NCBI GenBank assembly: GCA_029261355.1
Contig: JAJDBM010000035.1
Span: 1 to 64,000, forward strand
DNA length: 64,000 bases
DNA from: Nitrospirales bacterium
GTDB taxonomy: Bacteria > Nitrospirota > Nitrospiria > Nitrospirales > UBA8639
Direction: 5' to 3'
A program made the translations under genes and the position numbers. Every line of letters begins with the position of its first letter. Position 1 is the first letter of the stretch. Under the pieces are notes generated by a model, which worked only from the letters and a program-made list of their open reading frames with translations, ran no database searches and was not told where the DNA came from. This document shows, piece by piece, positions 5,728 to 50,830 of this stretch.

Positions 5728-5804
<77 letters not shown>

Positions 5805-29129: not shown

Positions 29130-29167
29130 GGGGTTTGAAGTCCACTGGAACGAAAACGTACGCTAAG
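29130..29167 (+). repeat. Tn3 left terminal inverted repeat
   Basis: 38 bases beginning GGGGTTTGAAGTCCACTGG, an exact complement of 34793-34830. Its inner end ACGCTAAG matches the conserved transposase-binding part of Tn3-family ends. Confidence 0.95.
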
Positions 29168-29232
29168 ATTTAGGCTTCAGTTTGGGTAATGACCTACTTA
29201 ATGCAACTTGTGGTCTGCTGGCGACATCATTT

Positions 29233-31026: not shown

Positions 31027-31070
31027 TAGATATCCACCTTGTTTATTATTCTCTGTCTTTTGTTAAACCT

Positions 31071-31735
<665 letters not shown>

Positions 31736-31788
31736 TTAAGAGACACTCCTGATCGTGCGACTTATCAACGATGAGAACTGAGGGATGA

Positions 31789-34700
31789 ATGCCCGTCGAA
31801 TTTTTAACCGCAGAACAGAAGGCTCGTTATGGTCAGTTCGATGGCGAACCCAATGACGTACAACTGACTCGCTACTTCCATCTCGATGAAGCTGACCTGG
31901 CTTTTGTCTCCACCCGACGTGGTGAGCACAATTGTTTCGGTGTGGCACTGCAATTAACCACTGTTCGATTTCTTGGCACGTTCCTTGGCGATCTCTCGTG
32001 TATCCCCCGAAACGTCCAAGTATTCGTGGCCCGTCAATTATCGATTGCAAACGTTGGTATCCTGGGAGACTATGCACAACGAGAAGTCACCAAGCGTGAA
32101 CATATCGCGTTGATCCGTGAGCAGTATGGCTATCGGGAATTCAATCATCCGCCTTGGTCATTTCGGTTAGGTCGATTACTTTATGCTCGTGCTTGGATTA
32201 GCAATGAGCGACCGAGCCTACTCTTCGACTTCGCGACAGCGTGGCTTATCCAGAATAAGGTTCTGTTACCAGGGGCTTCTACGTTAACGCGCCTGATTGC
32301 TGAAGTACGCGCGCGCGCCACGAATCGATTGTGGCAAAAATTATCCTCTCTGCCATCGCGTGCACAGAAAGCGAAATTAAACACGCTTCTTCAAGTGCCT
32401 GATGGCCAACGAAACTCGCGATTTGACCATTTCCGAAAAGGACCTGTGACAATCAGTGGGCGAGCGTTTAATGAAGCCGTCGATCGTTATCAAGCATTGA
32501 TGGACTTCGGGATGCAATCTTTCGATTTTTCTCATATCCCACCTGTACGTTTGAAGAATCTGGCCCGTCATGCAGGCATGATTTCCATGCACAAAATTGG
32601 GCGAATGCCTGAGGACCAACGTATCGCCCTTCTTGTGGCCTTCGCGAAGGCCTTTGGCATCATCGCTCTGGATGAGGCCCTTGATGTCTTGGATTTACTC
32701 CTTACCGATATTGCGGGAAAGGCCAAGATAGCTGGGCAGAAAAAGCGGTTGCGAACATTGAAGGATCTGGATAAGTCAGCCATGGCATTGGCTGACGTGT
32801 GTACCTTAATCCTGAATGAAGAAACACAAGACGCGCAGTTGAGAGAGATAATTTTCTCCCAAATATCCAAGGAGAAACTGACTGAATCGATTGCAACCGT
32901 CAAGGACCTGGCACAGCCCTACAACCATAATTTTTATGATGAAATGGTGGAGCAATATGGACGTGTGCGAAGATTTTTACCGAAGTTGCTCAAAGATATC
33001 GATTTGAGAGCGGCTCCTGCTGGCAAGGAGATTTTAGAAGCCTTCCACTATCTTGGCTCTGTGGGTTTTTCCCGCAAAAAACAATTTGACGATGCTCCTC
33101 TTGCTATCGTGACTACCCCTTGGAAGAAGATGGTTTTTGATCATGAAGGAAGAGTGACGAAACGAGGGTACACGCTGTGCTTCCTCGACAAACTGCAAGA
33201 CGCCCTTCGGCGGCGGGATGTGTACGTTGAAAATAGTGATCGCTGGGGTGATTCACGAGCCAAGCTCTTAGCCGGTGCCGATTGGCAAGCAAACCGGATA
33301 CAAGTTTGCCGTTCTCTTGGCCATCCATTGAACCCAAAAGAAGCGATAACCAGTTTGGTGCATCAACTGGATATGACGTACCACCAAGTCGCAGCAAACT
33401 TTGCAGATAATCAATCTGTATGTCTCAATCTATCCAGTATGCATCCCTCGTTAACGATTACCAACCTCGATAAATTGAATGAGCCACCCAGTTTAGCGAA
33501 GCTGAGGAAGCACGTGGATGATTTGTTACCTACGGTGGATCTTACCGAGCTACTGTTAGAAATCCACGCCCACACGGGCTTCGCCGATGAATTTACCCAT
33601 GTCAGTGAATTTAATGCTCGCGCAAACGATCTACCTATCAGCATTTGTGCGGTGTTGTTGGCCGAAGCCTGCAATATCGGATTAGAACCGTTTATGAAGC
33701 ATCAGGTGCCTGCCTTAACCCGCCATCGCTTGAATTGGGTGAAACACAACTACTTGCGTGCGGAAACACTGGTTCGAGCCAATTCCAGACTCGTTGACTA
33801 TCAAGCCACGTTACCTTTAGCCAAAACATGGGGTGGAGGTGAGGTGGCCTCTGCTGATGGCATGCGCTTTATCACTCCGATTCGGACCATTAATGCTGGT
33901 CCCAACCGCAAATATTTTGGTTCACGTCGAGGGATTACCTGGTATAACTTTGTCTCAGATCAATACTCTGGATTCCACGGCATCGTCATTCCCGGAACGC
34001 TCAGAGATTCGATTTTTGTTTTAGAAGGTTTGCTGGAACAGCAAACAGGGCTTACCCCCATGGAAATTATGACTGACAGCTCTGGTACCAGTGACATGGT
34101 GTTTGGCCTATTCTGGCTTCTGGGGTATCAATTTTCACCGCGGCTGGCTGACGCCGGAGAAGCGGTATTTTGGAGAGTGAACAAAGAGGCAGATTACGGT
34201 GTTCTGAATGCTGTGGCACGTGGGTATGTGAATACCCATCGTATCGAACAGCACTGGGATGACATGCTACGAATTGCTGGATCACTCAAACTCGGCACCA
34301 TTCAGGCCTCAGAGTTGATACGCACTTTGCTCAAGAGTGAACGACCATCCAGTCTTGGGCAGGCCATTATCGAAGCAGGACGCATCAATAAAACGTTGTA
34401 TCTACTCAATTATATCGATGACGAAGATTATCGTCGTCGAATTTTGACGCAGCTCAATCGTGGTGAGGGAAGGCATGGGGTCGCTCGTGCTATTTGCCAT
34501 GGTCAACGAGGCGAAATCCGTAAGCGGTATCGTGAAGGCCAGGAGGATCAGCTTGGCACATTGGGTTTAATCACGAATGCCCTTATCTTGTGGAATACCA
34601 TCTATATGCAGGCGGCTTTGGATCATCTACAGTCCCTACTTGTGGAGATCAGGGAAGAAGATAAAGCCAGGTTATCTCCCTTGGAATATAAGCATGTGAA

Positions 34701-34797
34701 TATGCTGGGGCACTACTCATTTACATTGGCAGAAAATGTGATGAAGGGAGAACTTAGACCGCTGAAGCAGCAATCTGAGATGGAAGAACGGCCTTAG
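31789..34797 (+). CDS. tnpA: Tn3-family transposase
   Basis: A 1002-residue transposase, normal size for Tn3. N-terminal recognition region: PVEFLTAEQKARYGQF and TRYFHLDEADLAF. The DDE core is visible as EVASADGMRFITPIRTINA (first Asp), IMTDSSGTSDMVFGLFWLLG (second Asp) and RIEQHWDDMLRIAGSLKLG and following residues for the Glu region. The C-terminus has LLGHYSF-type LGHYSFTLAEN. GAGGGATGA precedes ATG 31789. The stop codon lies inside the right terminal repeat. No frameshift seen, so it is probably functional. Confidence 0.97.
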   Translation: MPVEFLTAEQKARYGQFDGEPNDVQLTRYFHLDEADLAFVSTRRGEHNCFGVALQLTTVRFLGTFLGDLSCIPRNVQVFVARQLSIANVGILGDYAQREVTKREHIALIREQYGYREFNHPPWSFRLGRLLYARAWISNERPSLLFDFATAWLIQNKVLLPGASTLTRLIAEVRARATNRLWQKLSSLPSRAQKAKLNTLLQVPDGQRNSRFDHFRKGPVTISGRAFNEAVDRYQALMDFGMQSFDFSHIPPVRLKNLARHAGMISMHKIGRMPEDQRIALLVAFAKAFGIIALDEALDVLDLLLTDIAGKAKIAGQKKRLRTLKDLDKSAMALADVCTLILNEETQDAQLREIIFSQISKEKLTESIATVKDLAQPYNHNFYDEMVEQYGRVRRFLPKLLKDIDLRAAPAGKEILEAFHYLGSVGFSRKKQFDDAPLAIVTTPWKKMVFDHEGRVTKRGYTLCFLDKLQDALRRRDVYVENSDRWGDSRAKLLAGADWQANRIQVCRSLGHPLNPKEAITSLVHQLDMTYHQVAANFADNQSVCLNLSSMHPSLTITNLDKLNEPPSLAKLRKHVDDLLPTVDLTELLLEIHAHTGFADEFTHVSEFNARANDLPISICAVLLAEACNIGLEPFMKHQVPALTRHRLNWVKHNYLRAETLVRANSRLVDYQATLPLAKTWGGGEVASADGMRFITPIRTINAGPNRKYFGSRRGITWYNFVSDQYSGFHGIVIPGTLRDSIFVLEGLLEQQTGLTPMEIMTDSSGTSDMVFGLFWLLGYQFSPRLADAGEAVFWRVNKEADYGVLNAVARGYVNTHRIEQHWDDMLRIAGSLKLGTIQASELIRTLLKSERPSSLGQAIIEAGRINKTLYLLNYIDDEDYRRRILTQLNRGEGRHGVARAICHGQRGEIRKRYREGQEDQLGTLGLITNALILWNTIYMQAALDHLQSLLVEIREEDKARLSPLEYKHVNMLGHYSFTLAENVMKGELRPLKQQSEMEERP

Positions 34798-34830
34798 CGT
34801 ACGTTTTCGTTCCAGTGGACTTCAAACCCC
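34793..34830 (-). repeat. Tn3 right terminal inverted repeat
   Basis: Exact inverted copy of 29130-29167. It overlaps the last codons of tnpA (stop at 34795-34797). Confidence 0.95.
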
Positions 34831-35724: not shown

Positions 35725-36315
35725 ATGCAATACCGTTCAGCATCAGGATGCTTCACCCTTCTCTGTTCTCTACTCGTCATCGGAGGCTGTTCAACAGTCG
35801 ATTCCTCATCGCCAAGCGCATGGCTTGACGACGACTTTCCCCAAAGTCCTCAACCACTCTCTGAAGTCGTCACTCAAGATCCCATTTTGCCACTGAATCT
35901 TCCACCCAAAGTCACACTCGTCGCGAACCCTCTCGCCCCGAAAGACCCCGATCATCCCCTCTCGCCCTATCGCACGGTCTACTTTCCCTATGATAGTTGG
36001 TACTTAACTCCACCCAACCAAGACTTCCTCGTCGAAACCGCTGACGTTGTCAAAAATAAACCGCAACCCATTGACATCCTCATTGAAGGCCACACTGACA
36101 CACAGGGAACGAGCAGCTACAACATGATCCTCAGTAAACGCAGAGCCGCGGCCATTAAAGAATATCTCTCTGACCTCGGAATACAGAAACGACAGTTACA
36201 CATTGTCTCGTTTGGCGAAACACACCCCTCATGTACTGACCTACGGGAACACTGTCATAAATTTAATCGCCGTGCCTTCCTCGTCTTCAGCCCACACACA
36301 TCTGCACACCCATAG
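35725..36315 (+). CDS. OmpA-family lipoprotein
   Basis: A 196-residue protein with a lipoprotein signal (FTLLCSLLVIGGC, lipobox IGGC) and a Pro-rich linker to about residue 85. It ends in an OmpA-C peptidoglycan-binding domain: RTVYFPYDSWYL, ILIEGHTDTQGTSSYNM, LSKRRAAAIKEYL and SFGETHP. It would tether the outer membrane to the cell wall. AGGAGG precedes the ATG. The C-rich codon use matches the blocks on either side of region 4; it restarts the plus-strand element. Confidence 0.9.
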   Translation: MQYRSASGCFTLLCSLLVIGGCSTVDSSSPSAWLDDDFPQSPQPLSEVVTQDPILPLNLPPKVTLVANPLAPKDPDHPLSPYRTVYFPYDSWYLTPPNQDFLVETADVVKNKPQPIDILIEGHTDTQGTSSYNMILSKRRAAAIKEYLSDLGIQKRQLHIVSFGETHPSCTDLREHCHKFNRRAFLVFSPHTSAHP

Positions 36316-36323
36316 GAGCCCCG

Positions 36324-36557
36324 ATGCCTTCACCACACCCTGACTGGCTCACTCGTTGGCAACAGATCAGTATCATCGTGACACCAGACCCATTTCCACC
36401 AGATAGCGACAACTATAACAAGGTCAAAGGATTGTTGAACGCACTCGATTTCCACTTCAGGAAAAGCAACATGAAGAACTTTGATCTCACCCTCAATTCC
36501 CTGAAAGACCTCTGCTCTTCTGTCCCAAATGTTTCCGCCCAATCACATGTCACATAG
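36324..36557 (+). CDS. Small hypothetical protein (77 aa)
   Basis: Starts eight bases after the OmpA-like gene with AGGAGCCCCG before the ATG. The 77-residue product is soluble, with LTRWQQISIIVTPDPF and a basic C-terminal half. Position and ribosome binding site support it; no family recognised. Confidence 0.55.
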   Translation: MPSPHPDWLTRWQQISIIVTPDPFPPDSDNYNKVKGLLNALDFHFRKSNMKNFDLTLNSLKDLCSSVPNVSAQSHVT

Positions 36558-36609
36558 CCAACTCTCATGCACCATCCAAAAATCACGTGTGCACAAAGGA
36601 ACGACTCGT

Positions 36610-37551
36610 ATGCCTGCCACATCTCAAGCACTCTCCCCTAAACATGCCCTGTTCGACCGTGCGGTGTTTTTATTACTCAAAATTCGGCGCTTTGGTATTA
36701 TCAAAAAAGTTCCCACGGCCCATTGGAAGGATAGTGACAGCTCTCTGTTTCACAACACGGATTCCCAATACCTCAATGTCCAAAAACGTATTCTCGACTG
36801 CACACAATATTCAGCGATCACGAAACTTGATCGGAATGCACAAAAAGATATACGAGAACATGCGATCCCGACGTCTTATTTGCCAGGGCTCTATATCGTC
36901 CCACTGCTTTCTCTGAATTCCATAGAAAACATCCTCCAATCCTACCAAGTGCAGCGCCATCTCCTGGTAGAAGCCTTCCTCGAAGTCTACCCCTTTATTA
37001 AGACACAGGCGACTCTGTCACTCAATACACTTTATGACCCGAATAACTATCCTTCCTCAGAAACGGTCACGCAAGCATTCCACGTCGACACCTCCTACCT
37101 CCACTTCGATCTGCCTCAACTCTTACACACCATCAATCCCACACTCTACGCAGAAGAACGAGACAAAACCCAAAGCCGCCTTCATCATATGATGGCTGAA
37201 TCTCAACTCTACCTTCGAACATCCTTTCTCAAGCTCATCAAGGCACTTATCACTCGCCTATCGCTCAATCTCACCTCACCAACCAAACCCATTCGCATGA
37301 ATCACATCACCAAACTTCGTGATTTCGTCCAAGCGTTTCCACAACGCACCGTCACCACTGATACTCAGATGACAGCCCTCGTACAACAGACACAAGGACT
37401 GCTTCACGGCATGACATTAGCCGAAATCAAGGCTCACCCGCATGTGATGCATGCATTATCAGAACACTTAGCACCCATTCTATCTGCTCTTGAACATCTC
37501 ATAGAAGACCACCATGTCGCACCCCAAAACCACAAGCAACCCGTCTCATAA
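36610..37551 (+). CDS. DUF3150-like protein
   Basis: ATG 36610 (AAAGGA upstream) gives 313 residues. The N-terminus, LFDRAVFLLLKIRRFGIIKK, followed by KRILDCTQYSAI, YLPGLYIVPLLSL and LLVEAFLEVYPFI, fits the DUF3150 pattern known from phages and plasmids, where it often accompanies AAA and vWA proteins. Those partners are not visible here. The gene overlaps the next by 38 bases, which points to one transcript with the primase. Confidence 0.6.
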   Translation: MPATSQALSPKHALFDRAVFLLLKIRRFGIIKKVPTAHWKDSDSSLFHNTDSQYLNVQKRILDCTQYSAITKLDRNAQKDIREHAIPTSYLPGLYIVPLLSLNSIENILQSYQVQRHLLVEAFLEVYPFIKTQATLSLNTLYDPNNYPSSETVTQAFHVDTSYLHFDLPQLLHTINPTLYAEERDKTQSRLHHMMAESQLYLRTSFLKLIKALITRLSLNLTSPTKPIRMNHITKLRDFVQAFPQRTVTTDTQMTALVQQTQGLLHGMTLAEIKAHPHVMHALSEHLAPILSALEHLIEDHHVAPQNHKQPVS

Positions 37552-38608
37552 ACAACAAATTACGATGGTACAACATATTTCACAGGAAGACATCAACGCT
37601 GCCGACCGCGTCAACTTCATTGAGTATCTCAAAAATATCGGGTATACCCCTGTGTCAATAAAACCTGACAGTGCATTGTTTCACTCCCCACTCCGTGAAG
37701 ATCGAAACCCCTCATTCTCTGTTGGTCTCAACAATGGCCGTTGGGTTTGGCATGATTTTGCGACAAGGGACAGTGGGGACTTCATCACATTTATTCGGCA
37801 TTTTCTTCACCTAAGTTTTCCCGACGCTGTCAGGCACCTGCTCACCCACGCGTCATTCACGTACACACCCAAACCTCTCCACACTCATCGTCAGAGCCGT
37901 AAGAATACGATTGAGAAAATTAAGCACTGGTATGGGTCACTGAAAGACAGTCAAAGTCCGTCCCATCAACAACAAATACGAGACTATTTCACAACGCTTC
38001 ATCTTCCCTGGCATCCTGAGATGGGGAGTATCCTCCTCACCCTCAACCCTGATAAACAGAAACCTCATATACGAGTTCCCTACGTCACCACGCCAATTCC
38101 CACGGCGAATCTCAATGATATGCAAGCCCTCGAATGCCGAGCATTGCATACAGTACATCCTGACTACCGCCGGCGATGTGTAGGACCAAAAGCGTTATGG
38201 CGGCTACATCGTCCAGGACAACCACTGATCATCACTGAAAGTATTATTGACTGCCTGGCCGCCGATCAACTCTTCGATCAATCCTTTGATCTCATCGCGC
38301 TCAACTCCACTCGTAATATTGCTCTCGTTCGACCATATCTTGAGATTTCATCTCCATCACAGATCATACTCGCCCTTGATAACGATCAGAAAAAAGATCG
38401 TGGCCAACTCGCTCAGGAAGATCTTCTTAGAACAATTAACTCGCTGAATATCCCCATTTCCACCCTCACCCTCCATCATCAGACCGGCCATAAGGATTTA
38501 CACAAAGTACTCATGGATCATCCACAGCGACAATTTCGACTGAACCATTACCTCACGAACTCGCATTCATCACATTCTTCTCACTCTCCTTCATTCATCG
38601 TAATCTGA
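37514..38608 (+). CDS. CHC2/Toprim primase-like protein
   Basis: A 364-residue protein. The N-terminal 100 residues follow a DnaG-type CHC2 fold (LFHSPLREDRNPSFSVGLNN and WHDFATRDSGDFITFI) but the zinc cysteines are absent. The Toprim half has LIITESIIDCLAADQL (catalytic Glu) and IILALDNDQKKDRGQLAQ (acidic D-x-D). This layout is common in primases of mobile elements, which lay RNA primers for replication or transfer. The start overlaps the DUF3150-like gene. ATG 37565 is an alternative start. Confidence 0.85.
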   Translation: MSHPKTTSNPSHKQQITMVQHISQEDINAADRVNFIEYLKNIGYTPVSIKPDSALFHSPLREDRNPSFSVGLNNGRWVWHDFATRDSGDFITFIRHFLHLSFPDAVRHLLTHASFTYTPKPLHTHRQSRKNTIEKIKHWYGSLKDSQSPSHQQQIRDYFTTLHLPWHPEMGSILLTLNPDKQKPHIRVPYVTTPIPTANLNDMQALECRALHTVHPDYRRRCVGPKALWRLHRPGQPLIITESIIDCLAADQLFDQSFDLIALNSTRNIALVRPYLEISSPSQIILALDNDQKKDRGQLAQEDLLRTINSLNIPISTLTLHHQTGHKDLHKVLMDHPQRQFRLNHYLTNSHSSHSSHSPSFIVI

Positions 38609-38622
38609 CCAAGGAGGAACAG

Positions 38623-39765
38623 ATGCATATCACAGCTGAAAGCACGACATGGGCTCATGCCCTCAAACCATTTCTCACCTTCTTGGGAACGCTCGAGGAT
38701 TCATCAAAGGATCCTGGCGCCATCACATTCCAGGGAGAAAGGGACTCCGTCACGATTACCGCCATTTCACATACTCTCCATTTACAACAAACGCTTCCAG
38801 CTAAAATAAACAAGCCAGGATCAAGCATCATCCCATTTATCCCGTTTTATCAATTCTTAAAAACCCTCAGCGCAGGAGCCTTTACGCTCACCACGAAAGG
38901 AGCCAACTGCACCATCACATCCAAAGAACAAACCAACTGTGAGCTGAAACTCAAGATGATCTCATCTGAGAACATTCCACCATTCTCCCCTTCCCGCACC
39001 CCAGAGGTCACCTGGACCATTCCCAGTGCTCCTCTAATCGATTCACTCCCCTCGCTGCTCCCGTACGTCGAGAAACATCACACGAGGCCCGCTCTTCAAG
39101 GCTTCCTCTTTCACCTAACCGCTTCTTCAAAGCCGCTGTTATCCATTATTGGGACAGATGGACATCGACTCGCGAAATATGACCTTCCACTTGAGACGCT
39201 CGAAAATCCACACGATTCTCCCATGAAATACATTATCTCCAAACACACCATTCATATTCTGATCGACATGGGCAGACACCTTCCAGCATCAGAATCCTGG
39301 CTCATGACCGCGACCAAGAACCAGGTCACCTTCACCTTCGGATGCGCTTCACTGACAAACACCCTCATCGAAGGACAATACGTGAATTATCGAGCCATCA
39401 TCCCCTCAACATCCACCTTCACCGTCCGTCGTTCCTCTACATCCTTTCATGAAGCCGTCCGACGCATGAACACCGTGAATAACACCGTTGATCACCCCAT
39501 TAGGATTACCGCTGATGATCGCCGCATGACACTAACCACCAAAGACCACATGATCGGTGATGGCCTGGATAGTATTGATGTCCACTCATCGTCTTTAAAC
39601 AACAGTATCGAATTTAATACCAAATTTCTCTTAGATCTTCTCAAGGCCTTTGATCAAGAAATGATTACCTGGAAGAGAAACTCTTCAGACAGCCCCAGTT
39701 GCTTTACGGGCGATAACCATCCCGACTTGCTGTTCATAGTGATGCCCACAGTTACCAAAACCTAG
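38623..39765 (+). CDS. dnaN: DNA polymerase III beta clamp, element-borne
   Basis: A 380-residue sliding clamp. Three clamp domains can be traced: residues 1-120, 130-250 with IIGTDGHRLAKYDLPLE (the family's TDGHRL motif), and 260-380 with TLIEGQYVNYRAIIP. The C-terminus reads LLFIVMPTVTKT where housekeeping clamps end in VVMP.RL; this is the edge of the partner-binding cleft. AGGAGGAA precedes the ATG, 15 bases after the primase gene. It encircles DNA and holds polymerase and repair enzymes. The housekeeping copy should be elsewhere in the genome. Confidence 0.92.
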   Translation: MHITAESTTWAHALKPFLTFLGTLEDSSKDPGAITFQGERDSVTITAISHTLHLQQTLPAKINKPGSSIIPFIPFYQFLKTLSAGAFTLTTKGANCTITSKEQTNCELKLKMISSENIPPFSPSRTPEVTWTIPSAPLIDSLPSLLPYVEKHHTRPALQGFLFHLTASSKPLLSIIGTDGHRLAKYDLPLETLENPHDSPMKYIISKHTIHILIDMGRHLPASESWLMTATKNQVTFTFGCASLTNTLIEGQYVNYRAIIPSTSTFTVRRSSTSFHEAVRRMNTVNNTVDHPIRITADDRRMTLTTKDHMIGDGLDSIDVHSSSLNNSIEFNTKFLLDLLKAFDQEMITWKRNSSDSPSCFTGDNHPDLLFIVMPTVTKT

Positions 39766-39922
39766 CTATCAGCAAATACGTGCCCACATCGGTATAATAG
39801 GATACAGATGGCTCGAGCGAACAGGACTTCAGGAGTGAGAAACATGGATGTTCTCTTAATCTGAAATCACCTCCCACTTACGCACACCCTAATCCAAGGA
39901 CGGATACACATGGAAAACAGGC

Positions 39923-40657
39923 GTGCATTTTTCGTCGCATTCCTCACAATCACTCCTGCGCGCGTGCTGGGATTTTCATCCTGACAAAATCTTTGTGTTG
40001 AATGAACATGGGATTTATACCAACTACCAAAAACTTAACCCCGAATCCTCCACGATCATTCCACCTCAAACATTTCTGGACCACCATATTCTTGATGTCA
40101 TCCCACCTCCCTATAACAAAACCGCCTATATCACGTTTCGCGAAACCATCCGCTCACAAAGTCCTCAATTTACGATCATTGATCTTCGGGTAGAAAACCA
40201 CAATTCCTACTCAGTTTTTATTTCGATGATCCCGTTAACCCCTGGGGTCCTCGTTCTCGCGAAGGATTTTCCTCATCACAAGCTCCACGCATCTCAAATC
40301 CTCCTCACCATTCAAGATTTACAGAAACAAGACCCGATCTTCACACGACCTGAGGCATCCCTCGAATTCTTAAAGGATTCTCACTACACCTTTACCTTTC
40401 AATACGAACAAATTGACAAGCACGATCAATTAAACCCGATACTCTGGCTCTCTCTGACGACGAACATGATTCACAAGCTGAATCTCACACTTGTACATAC
40501 AACTAATTCTCCAGCCAGTGTCACATTTAAAGGAAAAATTCACCACGCCCATGAACTCACCACTCTCCTGAATCTCTTGTCTCCGACGTCACATATCGAC
40601 GACGATCAGAAAGGGAAACACGAGCAAAAGACACAGCCCGATCAAGATACCACGTAA
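39923..40657 (+). CDS. PAS-domain protein without output domain
   Basis: A GTG start gives 244 residues. Residues 10-115 read as a PAS domain (DKIFVLNEHGIYTNYQ, FLDHHILDVIPPPYN, SVFISMIPLTPGVLVLAKD). The rest has an alpha/beta region of about 100 residues without kinase, GGDEF or HTH motifs. The adjacent stand-alone receiver could be its partner, but no histidine kinase is present. Start uncertain. Confidence 0.65.
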   Translation: MHFSSHSSQSLLRACWDFHPDKIFVLNEHGIYTNYQKLNPESSTIIPPQTFLDHHILDVIPPPYNKTAYITFRETIRSQSPQFTIIDLRVENHNSYSVFISMIPLTPGVLVLAKDFPHHKLHASQILLTIQDLQKQDPIFTRPEASLEFLKDSHYTFTFQYEQIDKHDQLNPILWLSLTTNMIHKLNLTLVHTTNSPASVTFKGKIHHAHELTTLLNLLSPTSHIDDDQKGKHEQKTQPDQDTT

Positions 40658-40723
40658 AATTCGAGGTAACCCATATCACAGTTGACCACTCTTTTAACTT
40701 CAATTACGCTCTTCTTACTATTT

Positions 40724-41116
40724 ATGCCTTCTATTCTCATTGCCGACGATACGGAAGCCGTCCTCACCGTCCTGCATGACGCGTTTACAGCTCTCGGGTT
40801 CACTACGGTCCTTGCCAGAAATGGTCAGGAGGCCCTCACACTCTTTTGCCTACATCAACCTGATCTCATCATTCTGGATATGCTCATGCCCCATACTGAG
40901 GGGCTTGAAACCATTATTTCTATTCGAGAGGTCAATACGACTGTTCCTATTGTGGCCATTTCTGGCGCGTATATTGGAACCTACACCGACCTGCTCCAAC
41001 TGGCCATCGCCGTTGGCGCCAACCGAGCCATACGCAAACCCTTCATCGTGACCGAACTACGCGAATCCATTGTCAAAGAATATTTTCCAAAACATACCAT
41101 TCCTCCCAGACCTTAA
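40724..41116 (+). CDS. Stand-alone response-regulator receiver
   Basis: ATG 40724 gives 130 residues that begin immediately at the fold (MPSILIADDTEAVL); a TTG at 40682 would add 14 hydrophobic residues. All receiver residues are present: paired Asp in ADD, phospho-Asp in LIILDMLMPH, the Ser of VAISGAYI and the Lys of AIRKPF. No output domain. Its stop overlaps the stop of a short minus-strand frame. Confidence 0.88.
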   Translation: MPSILIADDTEAVLTVLHDAFTALGFTTVLARNGQEALTLFCLHQPDLIILDMLMPHTEGLETIISIREVNTTVPIVAISGAYIGTYTDLLQLAIAVGANRAIRKPFIVTELRESIVKEYFPKHTIPPRP

Positions 41117-41238
41117 CCCTCCTGCTCCATATCATCGAACGGCTCAGGTCTGATATCCTCCAGCACCATCAATCGTTCTTCACGCATTCTCGTCTCAAAA
41201 CGTGCTCTCCATAAACGGTGCATCTGCGAACATTCCAT
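41113..41238 (-). CDS. 41-residue hypothetical (coupled)
   Basis: A minus-strand frame with a protein-like charged sequence (MHRLWRARFETRMREERLMV). Its ATG overlaps the TGA of the frame upstream (TGATG at 41236-41240), as in coupled genes. Unrecognised; support is the overlap and composition only. Confidence 0.3.
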   Translation of the reverse strand: MECSQMHRLWRARFETRMREERLMVLEDIRPEPFDDMEQEG

Positions 41239-41414
41239 CACATGTTCATAAGCACACCACACGCACAACACTCGTTCGCATCAACACAGCACGGCAGTAA
41301 CGACTTCAAACTTCCTTCCACTTTTCTCACAAGACAAAATTCACCCTTTATCATCTCTTCATAATTACCTGCAAAAGGAGGCCGCCTTTCCAGAAAAGAA
41401 AAATTCTCCAACAT
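41238..41414 (-). CDS. Cys-rich small protein (tentative)
   Basis: The 58-residue product ends in CCVDANECCACG, a possible zinc knuckle. Its ATG lies in the palindrome CATG shared with the start of the plus-strand gene at 41413, so the two starts face away from each other on the same four bases. It could instead be fused by a frameshift to the 41-residue frame. Low support. Confidence 0.25.
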   Translation of the reverse strand: MLENFSFLERRPPFAGNYEEMIKGEFCLVRKVEGSLKSLLPCCVDANECCACGVLMNM

Positions 41415-41727
41415 GCCCACCACGACCCATCCCGTATTACTCATCGAAAGACCGTCACAACAACATCGTTGTTCTTGCACAATTATGACGCGCAAAAGTC
41501 GAGATCAATTGGATCTAAATGGGTATATCTGGAACGGCTACGACTATCTGCTACAGGTTTGGGTACAAGAAGGAAATGTCCTTCCCTGTGCTCACCCTCT
41601 TAAGATGCGAGCGAATCCATCATGTTGTGAAGCCAATCGCTTGGCTGGCCTTCCCGTGAAAGACATTCCCGGTGCTGAACGAATACACCTCTCTCATCGT
41701 CAGCATCGTCGTTTTATTTTGTCATAA
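41413..41727 (+). CDS. Hypothetical protein (104 aa)
   Basis: A plus-strand gene in line with its neighbours, with DLNGYIWNGYDYLLQVWVQE and NPSCCEANRLAGLPV. Several cysteines and aromatic residues; no family recognised. No clear ribosome binding site before ATG 41413; a later start at the internal MTRKSRDQ is possible. Confidence 0.45.
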   Translation: MPTTTHPVLLIERPSQQHRCSCTIMTRKSRDQLDLNGYIWNGYDYLLQVWVQEGNVLPCAHPLKMRANPSCCEANRLAGLPVKDIPGAERIHLSHRQHRRFILS

Positions 41728-41831
41728 CAACACTCCCCACCAACTCATCGTATTCTCAATGCTGTTCTGATGTTTCTTTCTATCACTCTCTGACAAGCAG
41801 CCGTTCGTATCATTCACCGAGGAATCACGCC

Positions 41832-42164
41832 ATGCCTTCCACTCAAACACCAGACTCCCTCGCCACCATCAATGATCAATTTCGCCGTCAACTGTCAATT
41901 TCCAGTGACTCACCTCTCGGCCTCTATAGAATGACTGGAGCAGTTGCCTCTTTCACATTTCGAGATAAACAGGAAATTCTACGAGTCATTGCTGAGTTCA
42001 GTGATTTCAATAAAGAGAATGATCCCTGGCAGGAACATGATTTTGGCTCCTTCATGTATCAAGAAGAAACCATATTTTGGAAAATTGATTACTACGATAA
42101 GAACATCGAGTATGGCAGTGCAGATCCTCTAGACCCCGAGAAAACCATTCGTGTTCTCGCATGA
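41832..42164 (+). CDS. DUF3768 protein
   Basis: A 110-residue protein with the full DUF3768 signature: TINDQFRRQL, MTGAVASF, FSDFNKENDPWQEHDFGSF, IFWKIDYYDKNIEYGS and DPEKTIRVL. This family is common on plasmids and integrative elements, and its function is unknown. GAGGAA precedes the ATG. It lies between the receiver and RusA genes of the element. Confidence 0.85.
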   Translation: MPSTQTPDSLATINDQFRRQLSISSDSPLGLYRMTGAVASFTFRDKQEILRVIAEFSDFNKENDPWQEHDFGSFMYQEETIFWKIDYYDKNIEYGSADPLDPEKTIRVLA

Positions 42165-42209
42165 ATACTAACGAACGATAATCATCTAATCACTCACGTC
42201 AGGAATCGT

Positions 42210-42584
42210 ATGACTCTCGTCATTTCGCTACCCCTTCCCCCCTCGATCAATCACCAATATGCGACGATTCGTGGCAGGCGAGTCTTAAGTAAAACCAGTC
42301 GAGACTACAAAGTCATGATCAGCACACACATCATGCTGCATATTCGAAATACTCTCCCTATACCTGATGACCGCCAAAATCTCACTATCGTGCTCACGTT
42401 ACATTTTTACTTCACAACGTTATTGAAACGAGATCTCGATGGAGGATTGAAGATTCTTCAGGATGGAATGTGCGAGGCGTTGGGAATCAATGACAATCGA
42501 GTGACAGAAATTCACCTCTATAAACACGTAGACCGACACCATCCACGGGTCGATTGTGAACTGTGGATGTTAAAAAACAAATAA
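42210..42584 (+). CDS. RusA-type Holliday junction resolvase
   Basis: A 124-residue endonuclease that cleaves four-way junctions. PLPPSINHQYATIRGRRVLS at the N-terminus, KRDLDGGLKILQDGMCEALG with the catalytic acidic residues, and NDNRVTEIHLYK are the family's motifs. The usual DxxN reads DLDGGLKIL here, where most RusA have D.DN..K...D. AGGAA precedes the ATG. It would process recombination intermediates of the element. Confidence 0.88.
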   Translation: MTLVISLPLPPSINHQYATIRGRRVLSKTSRDYKVMISTHIMLHIRNTLPIPDDRQNLTIVLTLHFYFTTLLKRDLDGGLKILQDGMCEALGINDNRVTEIHLYKHVDRHHPRVDCELWMLKNK

Positions 42585-42614
42585 AGTGGGGGTGAGGTGT
42601 CGAGGAACAACCAA

Positions 42615-42658
42615 GAATGAGGCGAGCACCTGGGTCGCCAGGACTCGCCTGTTCATTC
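42615..42658. terminator. Bidirectional hairpin between rusA and hup
   Basis: GAATGAGGCGAG at 42615-42626 pairs with CTCGCC and TTCATTC at 42644-42658 around a central loop. It sits between two convergent genes and is symmetrical enough to stop both transcripts. Confidence 0.65.
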
Positions 42659-42669
42659 TCGATTCGCTA

Positions 42670-42960
42670 CTACTTCTTCTTTGCTAAAATCGCATCTTTC
42701 GCGGCTTTGGCCACACGAAACTTGAGAACCTTCTTTGCGGCAATTTTGATGGTTGCTCCCGTTTGCGGATTGCGTCCCGTTCGAGCTTTCCGATGTTGCA
42801 CCACCAACTTACCAATCCCTGGGAACGTGAACCCGTCTTTCGCACCTTTGTACGCCAGCTCCGTTAATTCTTTGAGAATCTCATCCATCGCTTTCTTCGT
42901 CAGATCATGCTTATCAGCAAGCTTCCCAATCAACTGCGATTTCGTTAACGCTTTACCCAT
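42670..42960 (-). CDS. HU-family DNA-binding protein
   Basis: A 96-residue HU/IHF-like protein. ATG 42960 (AAAGGGAA upstream) gives MGKALTKSQLIGKLADKHDL, then FPGIGKLVVQHRKARTGRNP with the DNA-intercalating loop and its Pro, and a basic C-terminus (AAKAAKDAILAKKK). It bends DNA and would help compaction or recombination. Convergent with the rusA gene. Confidence 0.92.
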   Translation of the reverse strand: MGKALTKSQLIGKLADKHDLTKKAMDEILKELTELAYKGAKDGFTFPGIGKLVVQHRKARTGRNPQTGATIKIAAKKVLKFRVAKAAKDAILAKKK

Positions 42961-43344
42961 CCGTGATTCCCTTTCGTTAAAGTGCGTACGCCCCATTCAT
43001 CTGCCAGGATGTTTTACAGGGAATTGTCAAAGATTACAAGAAGATATTGGCTGAATTCTAGACCACTAACGTGCCTTGAGATGTCCAGTAATTCTCTCTT
43101 TTTATGAACCAGCGCCAATTGATGTTTAGACGCCGGCGCGCTCTTACCGACGGTCTTGGTAAAGATTCACTCATCCCTGCTTCACTTCACCTCGACTCCT
43201 CTCAAGCAACCTCTAAGAACGTACTATAGAGATTAGAGATAGCATTCACTTTCACGTTACGGACTTATGAATGTTGCTCTTTTAAAAGAGACTCGTGATG
43301 AGCATCTCGCTCATGACACATTCTAAACATACAGAAAGGACATT
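42961..43344. other. Divergent promoter region, nothing else recognised
   Basis: A gap between the HU gene and the excisionase-like gene, likely holding both promoters. No hairpin or RNA gene was recognised. Confidence 0.5.
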
Positions 43345-43605
43345 ATGACCAATCGTCACATCAAACCCCAGTCAAACAGCATGCCGCGCCTGTCACCTGT
43401 GCGTGAACATCACCTCCTCAACATTAAGGAAGCGGCAGCCTATACTGGGTTATCCGTTCACACCATTTACACGATGGTCTCTCAACGACGAATTCCCTAC
43501 GTCAAAGTCGGGCGATTGACAAAATTCGATCGAACGCTTCTGGATAAGTGGCTTCGTGACCATACGGTGCTTCCCGTGCCCCGTATGGAGGTCCGAACGT
43601 CGTGA
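43345..43605 (+). CDS. Excisionase-like HTH protein
   Basis: An 86-residue protein. Residues 22-72 form the MerR-like winged HTH of excisionases (LLNIKEAAAYTGLSVHTIYT, VSQRRIPYVKVGRLTKF). Such proteins direct integrase toward excision or act as small regulators. AAGGA precedes the ATG. It ends the plus-strand element block, near an integrase-tail-like trace at 43605-43700. Confidence 0.85.
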   Translation: MTNRHIKPQSNSMPRLSPVREHHLLNIKEAAAYTGLSVHTIYTMVSQRRIPYVKVGRLTKFDRTLLDKWLRDHTVLPVPRMEVRTS

Positions 43606-43700
43606 ACAGAGTCGAGCATGGGGGTCTCACCCGAGCGTCAGAAACTAGTGTTACATAGGTGTTAGAAAAAGAGCTAAATGAGGATAAAACAAGGTAGGAA
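43605..43700 (-). pseudogene. Integrase 3'-end trace (weak)
   Basis: On the minus strand, FSNTYVTLVSDARVRPPC resembles the tail of the integrase remnant at 2755 (FNTYLTRAHSG). The DNA GTTACATAGGTGTTAGAAAA matches GTTAAATAGGTGTTAAAAGT with few changes. It may be the third integrase end in the window and mark an element border. Confidence 0.3.
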
Positions 43701-43793
43701 ACGGCTAACAGAAACAAGTAGTGAAACGATGATTCATCAATAATAACAAGGGGTTTGTGAGTCTTATCACTAACTTACGCACCCCCCTCTCAG

Positions 43794-44334
43794 GTGCTCC
43801 TTGAGCAATGGGATGAGATCCTCCGCTTTGTGGGCACCATGAAGGTGAAAGAAACGACGGCCTCGGATTTGTTCCGTTGCCTCAACTCCTATTCGAAACA
43901 ACACACGCTCTACCGTGCCCTGAAAACGTTTGGCCACATTTATAAGTCCTTGTTTATTTTGCTATATCTCGATGATGTGGCCTTGCGGCAGGCCATTGAA
44001 AAACAGCTCAATAAAAGTAAAAGCGCGCATAAGTTTACGCGCGCGATCTCCGTGGGCAATCCGCGAGAATTATTAGAAGCCGACAAACAGGAATAAGACA
44101 TGGAGGAGGGCTGCAAACGCCTCATCAAAAATGCGATTATTTGCTGGTTTTTTTTATTTATCGCAGAAACTTGAAGAGGCAGGAGACGGCCCGTTGCGAG
44201 AGACCTTACTCCATGCGATTCGCCATGGATCCGTCGTGTGTTGGCAGCATATTAACTTGTTGGGGGAGTATGATTTCTCGGAAGAACGGCTCGAAGATTC
44301 GGTTAGCATTAAGCCCCCGAAACTCATCGCTTAA
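43794..44334 (+). pseudogene. Tn3-family transposase C-terminal fragment
   Basis: The frame begins VLLEQWDEILRFVGTMKVKE and follows TnpA to KQE, where a TAA (44094-44096) replaces a likely Gln codon. It continues as DMEEGCKRLIKNAIICW, shifts frame at the T8 run near 44148, and ends as YLSQKLEEA ... SVVCWQHINLLGEYDFS. It is not a copy of the transposon at 29130; the sequences differ. The N-terminal three quarters are absent. Confidence 0.85.
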
Positions 44335-44468: not shown

Positions 44469-45203
44469 TCAATACTCAAAATATTTCAACTCAAAACCAT
44501 TCCCTTCGCTCACCAAGCACGCTTTAAATCTGCTATGGACCTCTAAGTCAAAGAATGTCCATTGCAAATTTGGCGACAAAGGACCACTCGCAAGAAACCG
44601 CTTTCTCGATAGCCCCCAAGTTCCTAGCACATCGATCTGAGATAGTGGTTTCTCCAAGCCGACTCCTAGAGCCTTGAGATATGCCTCTTTTCGCGTCCAA
44701 CAAGTAAAGAACGCTTCGCGACGCAACGCCTCTGGAATCTGAGACAGTTCAGTAATTTCATGGGGACAAAAAACCGAACTTGTCATTTTGTCAAATTCGA
44801 TTTTATCACAGATAAACTCAACATCAATTCCGACTTCTCGACCTGACGCAACAGCAAGCAAGGCATAATCCTTACTATGCGACAAGTTAAAACGTAGATC
44901 TTGGGCGCATCCCGGCATCGCAAGCATAGGCTTTCCGGAACACCCATACGAATAGCAGACGTCCTCCATGTCACAACTAAGGTATTTCGCTAAGATAAAT
45001 CGAACTGCTCTATGGGCTATAAGGAAACAAGTCCGGTGAAGTGGTGCAACAAAACTTCGAGCTCGCGAAAGTTCATTGATATCTAGGACACTCTCAAAAT
45101 CCTGAGTTAACAACACGCGTTCTGTTTGGAGTGAAATCTGCCAAACGTGAACCTCTTTAGTTAAGGAATAGATGTGCCTATGATATTGATCCCAGGCATC
45201 CAT
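44469..45203 (-). CDS. 4'-phosphopantetheinyl transferase (Sfp type)
   Basis: A 244-residue enzyme that loads the phosphopantetheine arm from CoA onto carrier proteins. The key motifs are present: FNLSHSKDYALLAVA, VGIDVEFI with the Mg-binding Asp, and FFTCWTRKEAYLKALGVGL with the catalytic Glu-Lys. N-terminal IAHRAVRFILAKYL is also typical. It is usually linked to polyketide or peptide synthetases, none of which is in the window; a synthetase cluster may lie beyond it, or it serves elsewhere. Confidence 0.9.
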   Translation of the reverse strand: MDAWDQYHRHIYSLTKEVHVWQISLQTERVLLTQDFESVLDINELSRARSFVAPLHRTCFLIAHRAVRFILAKYLSCDMEDVCYSYGCSGKPMLAMPGCAQDLRFNLSHSKDYALLAVASGREVGIDVEFICDKIEFDKMTSSVFCPHEITELSQIPEALRREAFFTCWTRKEAYLKALGVGLEKPLSQIDVLGTWGLSRKRFLASGPLSPNLQWTFFDLEVHSRFKACLVSEGNGFELKYFEY

Positions 45204-45403
45204 ATTTTAAAAATTTCAGGAAATCGTTTCAGGACAATACGAATGAAATCATTTCGCCGAATTGGTTCAGGGAAATAAACGAATCTTTGACAGTATGCCT
45301 ATTCGTCAATAATCTGAGATCGGGAAAACTCATGCGATTTCGAAGAATGCAAGCTATAGAATATGCCCCGCAAAATCCCTATGTTCTTACGAAAGAATGA
45401 CTG

Positions 45404-47032
45404 TCAGCTGCCATCTTCAAGTTGAATCTGATAACGGTCCAAGCTTGTACCAGTGGCCAAATATAAATTGGCAAGAGACTGGTTGTAATCGACAATAGCG
45501 CGTAATTCATTCCCTCGAGCCTCAGCCAAATCACTTTGAAAATCAAGGACAATTTTTGTGGTGCTCAGTCCTAGGTTCAGTCGCTTTTGTTCTGTCACCA
45601 ATTGTTTCTTCGCCAGTTTTCTCGCGACTTTTGTGGATTCAATGCGCTTATAATCTGTCTTGAGACGACGAACGGCTGCTTTGGCCTGAAGAACGACTTG
45701 TTGACGTACACCATGAATAAAAGTTTGCGCCTTTCTCACCTCCAATTCTCGACGACGGACTTGACTAATCCCCGACCGATTGCCTAACGGATAGCTTAAA
45801 ACAAGTCCCAACCCAAGATTATAGAAATCCCGACTTACCGTACGATCACTAGTATCACCCAGCCCATTCCCTAATCCACTTAATCCAACGGTCCCCTGTA
45901 GCTCCAGGTTCGGAAGTAACTGATTTTTCGCAAACTTGCGATCGAGGGTTCGTGATTCAAGGGTTTTTTGAGCTTGTTTCACTTCAGGCTTACGCAGCAA
46001 TGCAAGTTTGATCGCTTCTTGAAAGGTGATGGGATATAACGTTTGAAGTGGATGATCGATGGGTATGACGCTTACTTGCTCATGCAGTTCATCATCAGAA
46101 TTCAACAGCAAACGACGAAGTTGATCTTCCTGATCCCCAATCGTTCGTTCAGCAACGAGTATGTCCTCAACACGTGAGGCCACAGAGGCTTGAGCTTGTA
46201 AGACTTCAACTTCTGCTATGACTCCACTCTTCAATTTCGCCCGATTACGGACAAGAAGTTGTTGAGCCGAACGGTGCTTGGCTTGAGCTACATCAAGCGA
46301 TGTTCGCGCGAATATTAATTCCCAATAGGCTTGCTCGACTTGTGTGACAACCTTCAGTACCTGATCTAAAAAAACAAAACTTTCAACTTGTGCAGCATTT
46401 CTTGCGACATGTATCTGCGTGTGATTGACATCCGCACCGAAATTCCGCAAGAGGGAATGCGTAAGGTCAAGACGTATATTCCCCAAATACTCTGGGTTAA
46501 ATAAAAACCCGGACGTATCGCCAGCAACTGATGTTCGGAGAGAGCTAAGACTCAATGTAATATTTCCACCACTTTGTAGGGGATGAGCAAAGTCTATACC
46601 GAAAGACGTTTTATTCTGATCAAGACTACTCGGCTCCGAATTTTCTTCAAATTCACCGAGTCCTAAGATTGGTCGATTCAGTGGGTCCACCGAGCGATCA
46701 TAGCGACTAGAGAGCGTAACGCTCGGGTCAAACTTAGCTTTCTCAAATAGGATATCAGTCATCCGCACATCCCGTGCATAGCGACTTACTGAAATATCTG
46801 TGTTACTTTCTAATGCTTCAAGAATGGCCTCTTTGAGTGAAAATCTCATAACACGCTCGGAATCCAAATCTCCTAAGGCTGAACTGCTGGTGACTGCCAA
46901 AACTTGAGAGGGGGGGAATAGAAAGAATCCCAACCAGAACCCAAGCAGCAGCATCGTCACCCGACAAAAGAACCACAATGATTGACTGATAGCTATATTA
47001 GTCAAGGTGTTGGACTTCATTTGTTGTTTCAT
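45404..47032 (-). CDS. TolC-family outer membrane efflux protein
   Basis: Started at ATG 47032 the product has 542 residues. After an N-terminal hydrophobic signal (FFCRVTMLLLGFWLGFFLF) come the two outer-membrane-factor repeats: LKEAILEALESNTDISV near residue 70 and FQEAIKLALLRKPEVKQ near 340, with long coiled coils (AQAKHRSAQQLLVRNRAKL). It forms the outer channel of a tripartite pump. It lies about 120 bases downstream of the MacB-type ATPase on the same strand. Confidence 0.9.
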   Translation of the reverse strand: MKQQMKSNTLTNIAISQSLWFFCRVTMLLLGFWLGFFLFPPSQVLAVTSSSALGDLDSERVMRFSLKEAILEALESNTDISVSRYARDVRMTDILFEKAKFDPSVTLSSRYDRSVDPLNRPILGLGEFEENSEPSSLDQNKTSFGIDFAHPLQSGGNITLSLSSLRTSVAGDTSGFLFNPEYLGNIRLDLTHSLLRNFGADVNHTQIHVARNAAQVESFVFLDQVLKVVTQVEQAYWELIFARTSLDVAQAKHRSAQQLLVRNRAKLKSGVIAEVEVLQAQASVASRVEDILVAERTIGDQEDQLRRLLLNSDDELHEQVSVIPIDHPLQTLYPITFQEAIKLALLRKPEVKQAQKTLESRTLDRKFAKNQLLPNLELQGTVGLSGLGNGLGDTSDRTVSRDFYNLGLGLVLSYPLGNRSGISQVRRRELEVRKAQTFIHGVRQQVVLQAKAAVRRLKTDYKRIESTKVARKLAKKQLVTEQKRLNLGLSTTKIVLDFQSDLAEARGNELRAIVDYNQSLANLYLATGTSLDRYQIQLEDGS

Positions 47033-47153
47033 AATGTGACGAATGCATATGTACATAGGTCATTCATAAATCGACAAGACTATTTTGCTTCACTGAAAAA
47101 TCTTGTTTGACCTTTAAATTCTGCTTAAACATGAATTGAAGATAAGTAGATTA

Positions 47154-47822
47154 TTATGATGAAGTTTCAATAACACCATCTTTGACTTTTATGAGGCGTT
47201 CAGTGTAACCCGCAACTTCTTGTTCATGAGTCACAAGCACAATCGTGGCGCCAGATTGATGCACTTGAGTAAATAATTCCATGATCTCAACCGATGTCTT
47301 TGTATCAAGATTGCCTGTTGGCTCATCAGCCAAGATCACCTTCGGGGCAGTAATTAAGGCACGTGCAATAGCGACACGCTGACGTTCACCACCTGACATA
47401 TCATTGGGGAAATGTTCAAGGCGATGCCCCAGGCCAACACGTTCTAAATATTCTTTCGCCCGATCTTGACAGATGGCGCGCGAGATATTTTGGTAAGAGA
47501 GAGGAAGGGCCACATTTTCAAGCGCAGTTTTCATAGGTAGAAGGTGAAATGATTGAAAGACAAAACCTAATAATTGATTTCGGTGAACGGCCGCTTCAGT
47601 TTGCGTTAGATTTTGAATGAGTGTTCCAGCTAAGGTATACGACCCCGAATCATAGTCATCAAGTATGCCCAATACATTAAGCAATGTTGATTTCCCAGAC
47701 CCTGAGGGTCCCATAATAGAAACAAACTCTCCTTGTTCAATGCTCAGGTCAATTCCACACAAAACAGGAACGACCGTTGAGTTAATTCTATAAGATTTAT
47801 TGACTTGCTTAAGTTGAATAAT
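47154..47822 (-). CDS. MacB/LolD-type ABC ATPase with ATT start
   Basis: A 222-residue ATPase. GPSGSGKSTLLNVLG (Walker A), LLGFVFQSFHLLPM (Q-loop), DMSGGERQRVAIARAL (signature) and KVILADEPTGNLD (Walker B) are all present. The nearest standard start (TTG 47762) would cut off the first strand. The sense continues upstream as IQLKQVNKSYRINSTVVPVL to an ATT at 47820-47822, with GGGAGG about eight bases before it; an upstream TGA closes the frame. Family members start MIQLK, so the ATT most likely stands for the start codon. A mutated start is the alternative. Confidence 0.85.
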   Translation of the reverse strand: MIQLKQVNKSYRINSTVVPVLCGIDLSIEQGEFVSIMGPSGSGKSTLLNVLGILDDYDSGSYTLAGTLIQNLTQTEAAVHRNQLLGFVFQSFHLLPMKTALENVALPLSYQNISRAICQDRAKEYLERVGLGHRLEHFPNDMSGGERQRVAIARALITAPKVILADEPTGNLDTKTSVEIMELFTQVHQSGATIVLVTHEQEVAGYTERLIKVKDGVIETSS

Positions 47823-48194
47823 ATGCTCGCCCTCCCAGCCTCAATGAACTCAAAGGATTATGACAAATCGCTAGGTATCAACTCTGCAGGAGCTCATCCC
47901 AACGAAAAATTCGATCAGAACAGTCCTGGTAAAAATGAAAGTACGGAACGGTATGCGGGACATATCGGGGAAATCTTAAAACGGCTATTGTCTGTGGGTG
48001 TATGGGATGTTCGAAATATTCATAAACTCATCGGTGCTCCAGGTATAGTCAATAAACATTCGTTTTGCCATGAAAACGCTTAAGGGACAAGGCTAAAGGA
48101 AACGATATAACTAGGTCACTCACGTTAACTTAATAGATGAGCCTTCCCTACCACGCGAATTCATCGATGATGGTTTCGATCTTCACAACGCTCT
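47823..48194. other. Gap without firm gene
   Basis: A plus-strand open frame here (47805-48083, 92 codons) overlaps the ATPase start and has no ribosome binding site. No RNA or hairpin was recognised. The strand switch is atypical for this minus-strand run. Confidence 0.4.
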
Positions 48195-48644
48195 TTATTT
48201 TTTAAGGGTAATGGTTTTGATGTCAGATGGTTGAAAGTCCGTTTCCCCAAAATCAGAATCTCCCCGAAACTTTCCATCAATGCTTAACGGGAATTTCCCT
48301 GTTTTCCCATTCGTTAAATGAATAGTGAGTTCAGGATTCTTGCCGTTCAAGCTAATCTGAATTTCTTTTATAGAGGAAAATTTGACATTAATAGTTGATG
48401 CACCTTTTTTCACAGGGACATGGTGCAATTCATGAGGCACAAAGGATGTGTCGTTAAGTCGTTCTTCCCAATAAAATCGAAAATTGTCAATCTGGGTTTC
48501 GACTCCCTCTGCATCAATGATTGTGGCATGAAACTGTTGCGCACCGATCGCAAAGCTTGGGAGACTAAATAAGGCACAGACAACAACAATCAGTCCTAGG
48601 GCATTCTTGCTACGTAAAAACATAAATTGTGTAAAGCTCTTCAT
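48195..48644 (-). CDS. Exported hypothetical protein
   Basis: A 149-residue protein with a signal peptide (ALGLIVVVCALFSLPSFAIG). The mature part is beta-rich, with VETQIDNFRFYWEERL and LTIHLTNGKTGKFPL, without known motifs. AAGGAGAAG lies before the ATG. It is downstream of tonB and may be in its transcript; a periplasmic role is likely. Confidence 0.65.
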   Translation of the reverse strand: MKSFTQFMFLRSKNALGLIVVVCALFSLPSFAIGAQQFHATIIDAEGVETQIDNFRFYWEERLNDTSFVPHELHHVPVKKGASTINVKFSSIKEIQISLNGKNPELTIHLTNGKTGKFPLSIDGKFRGDSDFGETDFQPSDIKTITLKK

Positions 48645-48832
48645 AACTTCTCCTTCATATCCAGCCTAGATAAGAGTTGATTGTAAATATACGATAGTCA
48701 TTCGCTTTTATGATCAAGGGGTCAGATTATGGGTAAGACATTTCGCTTTCCTGAATGGAAACTTTTTAACACGGTGGTGTGATCATATCCCCTGAGCCCC
48801 CTAACAATGAGGATAGCAACGGTGGAAGGCGC

Positions 48833-50767: not shown

Positions 50768-50830
50768 AACGACAAGTCCTTTTATGAAAGTCTAAGCAGC
50801 CATCATCACTGACGATCACACAGAATAAAA

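Follow-up and report, generated by a model that had tools for sequence, protein, structure and literature searches.

A run of genes at 35.7-43.6 kb of a 64,000-nucleotide stretch of Nitrospirales DNA (hereafter the window; contig C35 of a 4.63-Mb genome) encodes a beta sliding clamp beside a primase and other DNA-processing proteins, which raises the question of what kind of DNA carries such a set and how it replicates or moves. An earlier note, made from the sequence alone, had read the run as a mobile module, a claim borne out here by an integrase, attachment sites and tRNA insertion sites that differ among hosts. We conclude that the module is very probably the DNA-metabolism segment of a putative family of Nitrospirales ICEs, and that the window holds a conjugation-defective copy of about 38 kb (Table 1).

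The element (hereafter element A) extends from window position 5763 to about 43800, beginning at a PF00589 tyrosine integrase gene that lies just upstream of the 5' end of tRNA-Pro and abuts the tRNA gene. The 42-bp core, nucleotides 1-42 of tRNA-Pro, recurs in 100% identical copies on another contig of the same genome (C44:1225-1266) and in G002 and G004, two genomes of the same genus. Empty tRNA-Pro sites, flanked by rdgB and rph, were found in G001 and G003, the former with the order rph - rdgB - tRNA-Pro - tRNA-Arg. This order is split in the source genome, where rph - rdgB run up to the 42-bp copy on C44 and a rebuilt tRNA-Pro is followed by tRNA-Arg in the window, which indicates that the DNA to the right of window position 5763 was inserted, with its far end at C44:1225. 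The 195 bp that precede the C44 core can be aligned to window 43606-43800 as well as to the right ends of G004 and G002, and the two right ends of the source genome (window 43119-43800 and C44:549-1230) are 95.5% identical over 683 bp. We infer from this arrangement two tandem elements at tRNA-Pro, namely element A, which holds the module, and element B, which would lie beyond 43.8 kb and end on C44; at the junction of the two, a Tn3 transposase fragment beginning at about 43794 accounts for the loss of the core. A comparable tandem junction, consisting of an integrase end, a core and a Xis end, is present in G002. Judged from the att structure, integration at tRNA-Pro by the integrase is well supported, with terminal direct repeats and an empty site both found and the right core located on C44 beside the second, near-identical right end. 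The window itself lacks a right attachment core, which counts against our preferred explanation.

Window 44469-64000, continuing on C35 to position 85541 (L031, L108), is a large siderophore-like region with NRPS, TonB/ExbBD, FecR/sigma factor, and ABC and TolC-type export genes; lying between the two right ends, it appears to be cargo of the second tRNA-Pro element, with the C35-C44 contig gap intervening. A paralogous, adjacent pair of peptidase-like lipoproteins with repeated DNA is also located here (51636-52661 and 52864-53850). At the tandem tRNA-Pro junction of G002 (L106, C139:4990-8885), the integrase is truncated, and a fragment of a Tn3 transposase is found there that is related to its counterpart at window 43794 (61% over 66 aa). 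On the left side, a C-terminal integrase fragment (2629-3030) overlaps tRNA-Arg, which lies 3.0 kb from tRNA-Pro in the window and 0.57 kb from it in G001; this points to the remnant of a further element. A full tRNA-Pro in G012 is followed 1.9 kb on by a repeat of its nucleotides 29-77 (L116, C7:1561320-1563288), a signature of a small element that uses the opposite half of this tRNA gene.

Table 1. Features of element A, with window coordinates and supporting matches
Feature	Position	Strand	Evidence
attL core = tRNA-Pro(TGG) nt 1-42, within reconstituted tRNA gene 5728-5804	5763-5804	-	exact 42-bp copies
Tyrosine recombinase (integrase) of the element	5816-7012	-	PF00589 6e-26; 87% identical to the G002 integrase at tRNA-Pro
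IS240/IS26-like insertion sequence within element A	7437-8283		PF13610 1e-41; inverted repeats 7437-7479/8241-8283
SRAP (SOS response associated peptidase)	12459-13127	+	PF02586 5e-67
Sel1-repeat protein of the element family	14367-15008	+	PF08238; G008 homologue between module and integrase
RadC-like JAB protein	16018-16524	+	PF04002 6e-38; G088 homologues on clamp contig and primase-bearing contig
Circularly permuted YpsA/SLOG protein, likely cargo	24861-25421	+	PF12694 1e-45; G045 homologue downstream of RusA-HU
Tn3-family transposon, inserted into element A	29130-34830		perfect 38-bp inverted repeats; PF01526 6e-149; PF00239 3e-37
OmpA-domain lipoprotein, first gene of the module	35725-36315	+	PF00691 7e-19; same place in G003, G004, G008
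Small protein	36324-36557	+	position conserved in G008
DUF3150-like protein	36529-37551	+	family profile aligns with an annotated DUF3150; present in 14/18 clustered loci
Small DnaG-type primase, CHC2 zinc ribbon and Toprim, without helicase domain	37514-38608	+	profile matches
Element-encoded beta sliding clamp (three-domain DnaN)	38623-39765	+	TIGR00663 3.7e-40; PHROG 947 9.5e-36
PAS-like module protein	39923-40657	+	kept beside clamp or primase in G003, G004, G045, G008
Receiver-domain protein	40682-41116	+	PF00072 5.6e-21
DUF3768 protein	41832-42164	+	PF12599 7e-30
RusA-family Holliday junction endonuclease	42210-42584	+	PF05866 3.4e-7; 68-78% identical in G002, G004, G045
HU-family protein, right end	42670-42996	-	PF00216 5e-23; 80% identical in G045; near attR in G004 too
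HTH_17 excisionase-like protein, last gene before right attachment site	43345-43605	+	PF12728 1.4e-13; Tn916-Xis 5e-4
Right end of element A; expected attR core replaced by Tn3 tnpA fragment from about 43794	43606-43800		aligned with C44, G002, G004 right ends

All module ORFs that had been listed before are present at their coordinates, open and of full length, and the assignments of the primase, DnaN, receiver, DUF3768, RusA, HU and excisionase-like HTH proteins were upheld by these ORFs and by family profiles; the OmpA gene, which is conserved with the module, was missing from that list. The two remaining labels were less straightforward. The DUF3150 label is probably right, and only at the level of the family, as read from profiles: the window protein has no Pfam match, PF11348 (DUF3150) is weakly matched by 4 of the 13 family members (best 3.6e-5), and the family profile aligns with annotated DUF3150 at an hhalign probability of 98%. 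Its true start may lie downstream of the ORF start, and its predicted fold, of modest quality (pLDDT 72, pTM 0.48), has no significant match in the PDB. The PAS-like protein has no convincing domain match in Pfam or PHROGs, yet it is conserved in relatives, and it forms one fused protein with the receiver domain in G008 (L028:7602-8660). Both G004 and C44 have the HTH_17 gene at the corresponding place ahead of attR. The 8.5-31 kb cargo and two module proteins were also considered as parts of a defence system, a reading dropped because PADLOC returned no match among them.

The composition of the DNA links the module to a block at 12.4-16.8 kb, as the earlier note had noticed, and the link is real by GC skew: -0.17 in that block and -0.30 in the module run, compared with values between about 0 and -0.06 for most of the other measured blocks; the stretch at 42.7-43.8 kb gave -0.13. 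The accompanying proposal of one element split by a 17-35 kb insert holds for its first half, given that in G008 the Sel1 homologue and those of the primase and clamp genes are contiguous and run into an integrase and tRNA-Pro. Its second half does not hold, because the element ends at 5763 and about 43800, and only the Tn3-family transposon within the 17-35 kb region was shown to be a discrete insertion (tnpA, 31789-34797; resolvase, 31071-31622; and a passenger at 29233-31026 encoding a 597-aa pentapeptide-repeat protein). Identity to relatives is uneven, at about 25-41% for the clamp and primase versus 68-78% for RusA and 80% for HU in relatives from the genus and family; element A is thus a mosaic, which also counts against our preferred explanation. 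A paralogous pair of LuxR-type regulators is encoded at 1809-2510 and 27197-27910.

We then compared the window clamp with housekeeping DnaN. Among the DnaN domains, PF00712 and PF02768 scored above their cut-offs and PF02767 just below (26.8 vs 27), and the TIGR00663 score was 138.0 against a cut-off of 137.65. An alignment to solved clamps showed that the TDGHRL motif and the C-terminal VMP (partner-binding) motif are both kept, which speaks for a working clamp, with a predicted role on element DNA. The clamp is only 25% identical to the housekeeping DnaN of its own genome, versus 85-90% identity among housekeeping DnaNs within the genus. Element and housekeeping clamps fell on two sides of a branch with support of 100/99 in the final tree, from which the very divergent G008, G088 and G142 clamps were left out (a first tree with them was unstable, with long branches) and in which long branches remain and the order among element clamps is unsure. 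Forcing the window clamp into the DnaN group of its genus was rejected (p-AU = 0.0185). The phylogeny that had been proposed as a check on the clamp thus separates two lineages, and both the tree and the low identity speak against a grouping with the host's only DnaN, the outcome named beforehand as contrary to a mobile module; a recent duplication of host dnaN is ruled out by the tree. The divergent clamp was matched by 164 of 72,556 plasmid records, and so the earlier remark that a clamp is rare on integrative elements stands insofar as such clamps are uncommon on mobile DNA, but they are not unique to this one.

A search of 395 genomes of the phylum with the primase gave strong matches (E < 1e-28) in 18 genomes, nearly all of them Nitrospirales, and G002 and G004, outside this sample, also carry the module. 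Altogether, the core genes (DUF3150-like, Toprim primase and mostly also the divergent DnaN) were found in about 20 Nitrospirota genomes, in most of which clamp, primase and DUF3150 occur together, the co-occurrence that had been suggested as a test. Clustering of neighbouring genes revealed a conserved order of class II ribonucleotide reductase (RNR), AAA ATPase, DUF3150-like protein, primase, clamp and often integrase. The Nitrospira loci, including those of N. moscoviensis, additionally have an SF2 helicase and a DUF6094 methyltransferase between primase and clamp, giving the order TraD-RNR-AAA-DUF3150-primase-(helicase-DUF6094-)clamp-integrase. N. moscoviensis NSP M-1 (NZ_CP011801) holds two module copies, one of them beside tRNA-Met. 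Insertion sites differ by host (tRNA-Pro, tRNA-Lys in G003, and tRNA-Met) and the module genes are absent from G001, the closest complete relative, so the gene set is not fixed at one place in all relatives, the second outcome named beforehand as contrary to a mobile module. For the G003 element at tRNA-Lys, neither a right-end repeat nor the other end was found within about 82 kb, a further point against our preferred explanation.

Most carriers among the relatives have conjugation genes beside the module. On the reductase side, the module adjoins a divergent gene with a match to TraD of the SXT/TOL type (8e-46, short of the family cut-off). F-type TraC was found in 16 of the 20 genomes tested; when TraC and TraD share a contig, they are typically about 20-30 kb apart. 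TraC lies on the contig of the module itself in G003, G293, G387, G329, G317, G357, G300 and G302, and the G003 cluster also encodes TraU, TraF, TraG_N, ParB-like and recombination-directionality-factor-like proteins. The only carriers without TraC are the source genome, G045 and G211. We found no T4SS TraC in the window or in the whole source genome, no TraD coupling protein in the window (a weak, unrelated-looking match lies on contig C21), and no AAA partner in the source genome, whose ribonucleotide reductase is of the housekeeping type only, the module-linked one being missing. These absences of TraC, the AAA partner and the module-type RNR point to element A as a defective or mobilizable derivative. 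The earlier statement that no conjugation gene was recognised and that movement was open is correct for the window copy, but the relatives carry an F-type conjugation system beside the module. Searches for four relaxase families (PF07514, PF08751, PF03432 and PF03389) gave no match in the source genome or on the module/T4SS contigs of the relatives; one standard criterion of a conjugative element is thereby lacking, and we call the relatives putative ICEs for this reason.

Three other readings were weighed against a defective member of this family. Rather than decayed, the element could be a streamlined integrative mobilizable element that has kept integrase, Xis, primase and clamp in order to replicate itself and relies on a co-resident ICE for transfer. 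This reading agrees with the module genes being all open and of full length, with the retention of ends and integrase, and with the tandem occupation of one tRNA-Pro by two right ends in both the source genome and G002. A similarly compact contig in G008, without AAA and helicase between OmpA and integrase, would also fit, but TraC and TraD of G008 are on other contigs and the compact contig may belong to a complete ICE. Moreover, neither a relaxase nor an oriT was identified, the right attachment core is destroyed, and the absence of TraC from the whole source genome means that no helper is resident now; we consider this reading rather unlikely.

The other two concern origins outside conjugation and are far less credible. 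PHROG relatives of the primase, clamp and RusA, and the existence of DnaN-bearing phages, might suggest a degenerate prophage or phage satellite with surviving replication genes. However, no capsid, portal or terminase family was found among the window proteins tested, matches to the primase were weak and partial in 50,697 phage records and partial (25-44%) in viral contigs, and relatives adjoin conjugation genes rather than virion genes, which makes such an origin highly improbable. Phage or plasmid origin of the primase itself was rejected on matches that were only weak or partial. SRAP, RadC, RusA and HU are also known as chromosomal genes, as an ordinary DNA-repair cluster with a duplicated host dnaN would have them, but the set is missing from the closest complete relative, has att sites and a different tRNA site per host, and contains a clamp whose low identity to its own DnaN and rejected grouping have been described above; this reading we regard as the least plausible of all.

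For the putative ICE family, protein families suggest the following course. The integrase would recombine the 42-bp core and keep the tRNA gene whole at the integrase end, and the HTH_17 protein at the opposite end is a likely directionality factor that may act with Int in excision. Complete relatives would deliver single-stranded DNA to a recipient by means of their TraD-type ATPase and F-type secretion channel. Synthesis of the complementary strand would be primed by the element primase, with a host polymerase tethered to it by the clamp, which would confer processivity, and with dNTPs supplied by the B12-dependent ribonucleotide reductase. RusA, HU and RadC may handle junctions and ends. 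Having lost the transfer genes, AAA and reductase, the window element could do no more than excise itself, or travel with outside help. Excision and transfer are predictions, as is the function given here to each protein on element DNA. Standard models leave completion of the second strand to the host once transfer has taken place (PMC3158045), and autonomous replication is known for some ICEs (PMC3542172); a clamp and primase encoded by the element itself would suit both second-strand completion and autonomous replication. More tentatively, and as a possibility we hold with limited confidence, the relatives may form a previously undescribed family of ICEs in Nitrospira of the nitrite-oxidising and comammox types, with an F-type channel, an unrecognised relaxase and its own partial replisome (clamp, primase and reductase) for replication or double-strand conversion independent of the host clamp.

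Among known systems, the closest are the putative ICEs of N. moscoviensis NSP M-1, NPIRA01/02/04, Nitrospira sp. CR1.3, BO4 and others, which have the same DUF3150-like and primase neighbours and mostly also clamp, TraD and TraC; they keep TraD, TraC, AAA and RNR (in Nitrospira also the SF2 helicase and DUF6094 methyltransferase), whereas the window element has none of these. With F-type (MPF_F) systems and SXT/TOL-type TraD, the relatives share the TraC, TraU, TraF and TraG families and a TraD-like ATPase, but their TraD scores stay under the NCBIfam cut-offs, searches for MOBH and MOBF relaxases gave no match, and the window copy has no T4SS gene. The Candidatus Manganitrophus plasmid CP114554 combines AAA ATPase, DUF3150, CHC2 zinc-finger, JAB and ParB genes in one block as the family does, although it is a large plasmid with no clamp annotated in the block. 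Its AAA ATPase and DUF3150 genes lie close together (L215), with CHC2, JAB and PRTRC genes on this large Nitrospirota plasmid, and the pair may be a wider mobile-element signature. Plasmid-borne DnaN of Pseudomonas megaplasmids and cyanobacterial plasmids is likewise a second, divergent beta clamp on mobile DNA, but is only about 20-27% identical to the window clamp; the window primase had only weak matches in three Prevotella plasmid records, which argues against a module shared with these plasmids. ICEBs1 encodes a replication aid, the helicase processivity factor HelP, but uses host polymerase and helicase, and the main text of its description mentions no sliding clamp (PMC3542172).

Plasmid clamps and ICEs are already known; what sets this family apart is the way they are combined, the group of hosts and the lack of a recognised relaxase. 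Our search of open papers on Nitrospira ICEs, on clamps of ICEs or plasmids and on DUF3150, with most subscription journals outside it, found no description of this family; a mobile VirB/D region in Ca. Nitrospira nitrosa has been reported in passing (PMC5596200). The question of T4SS clusters without a known relaxase has been raised before (PMC3158045), and the module/T4SS contigs without the four common relaxase families are an example of such clusters. In many ecosystems and wastewater plants nitrite is oxidised mainly by Nitrospira, whose gene exchange is poorly described. The cultured N. moscoviensis, with its two copies, would allow excision, transfer and the role of a clamp encoded by the element itself to be tested.
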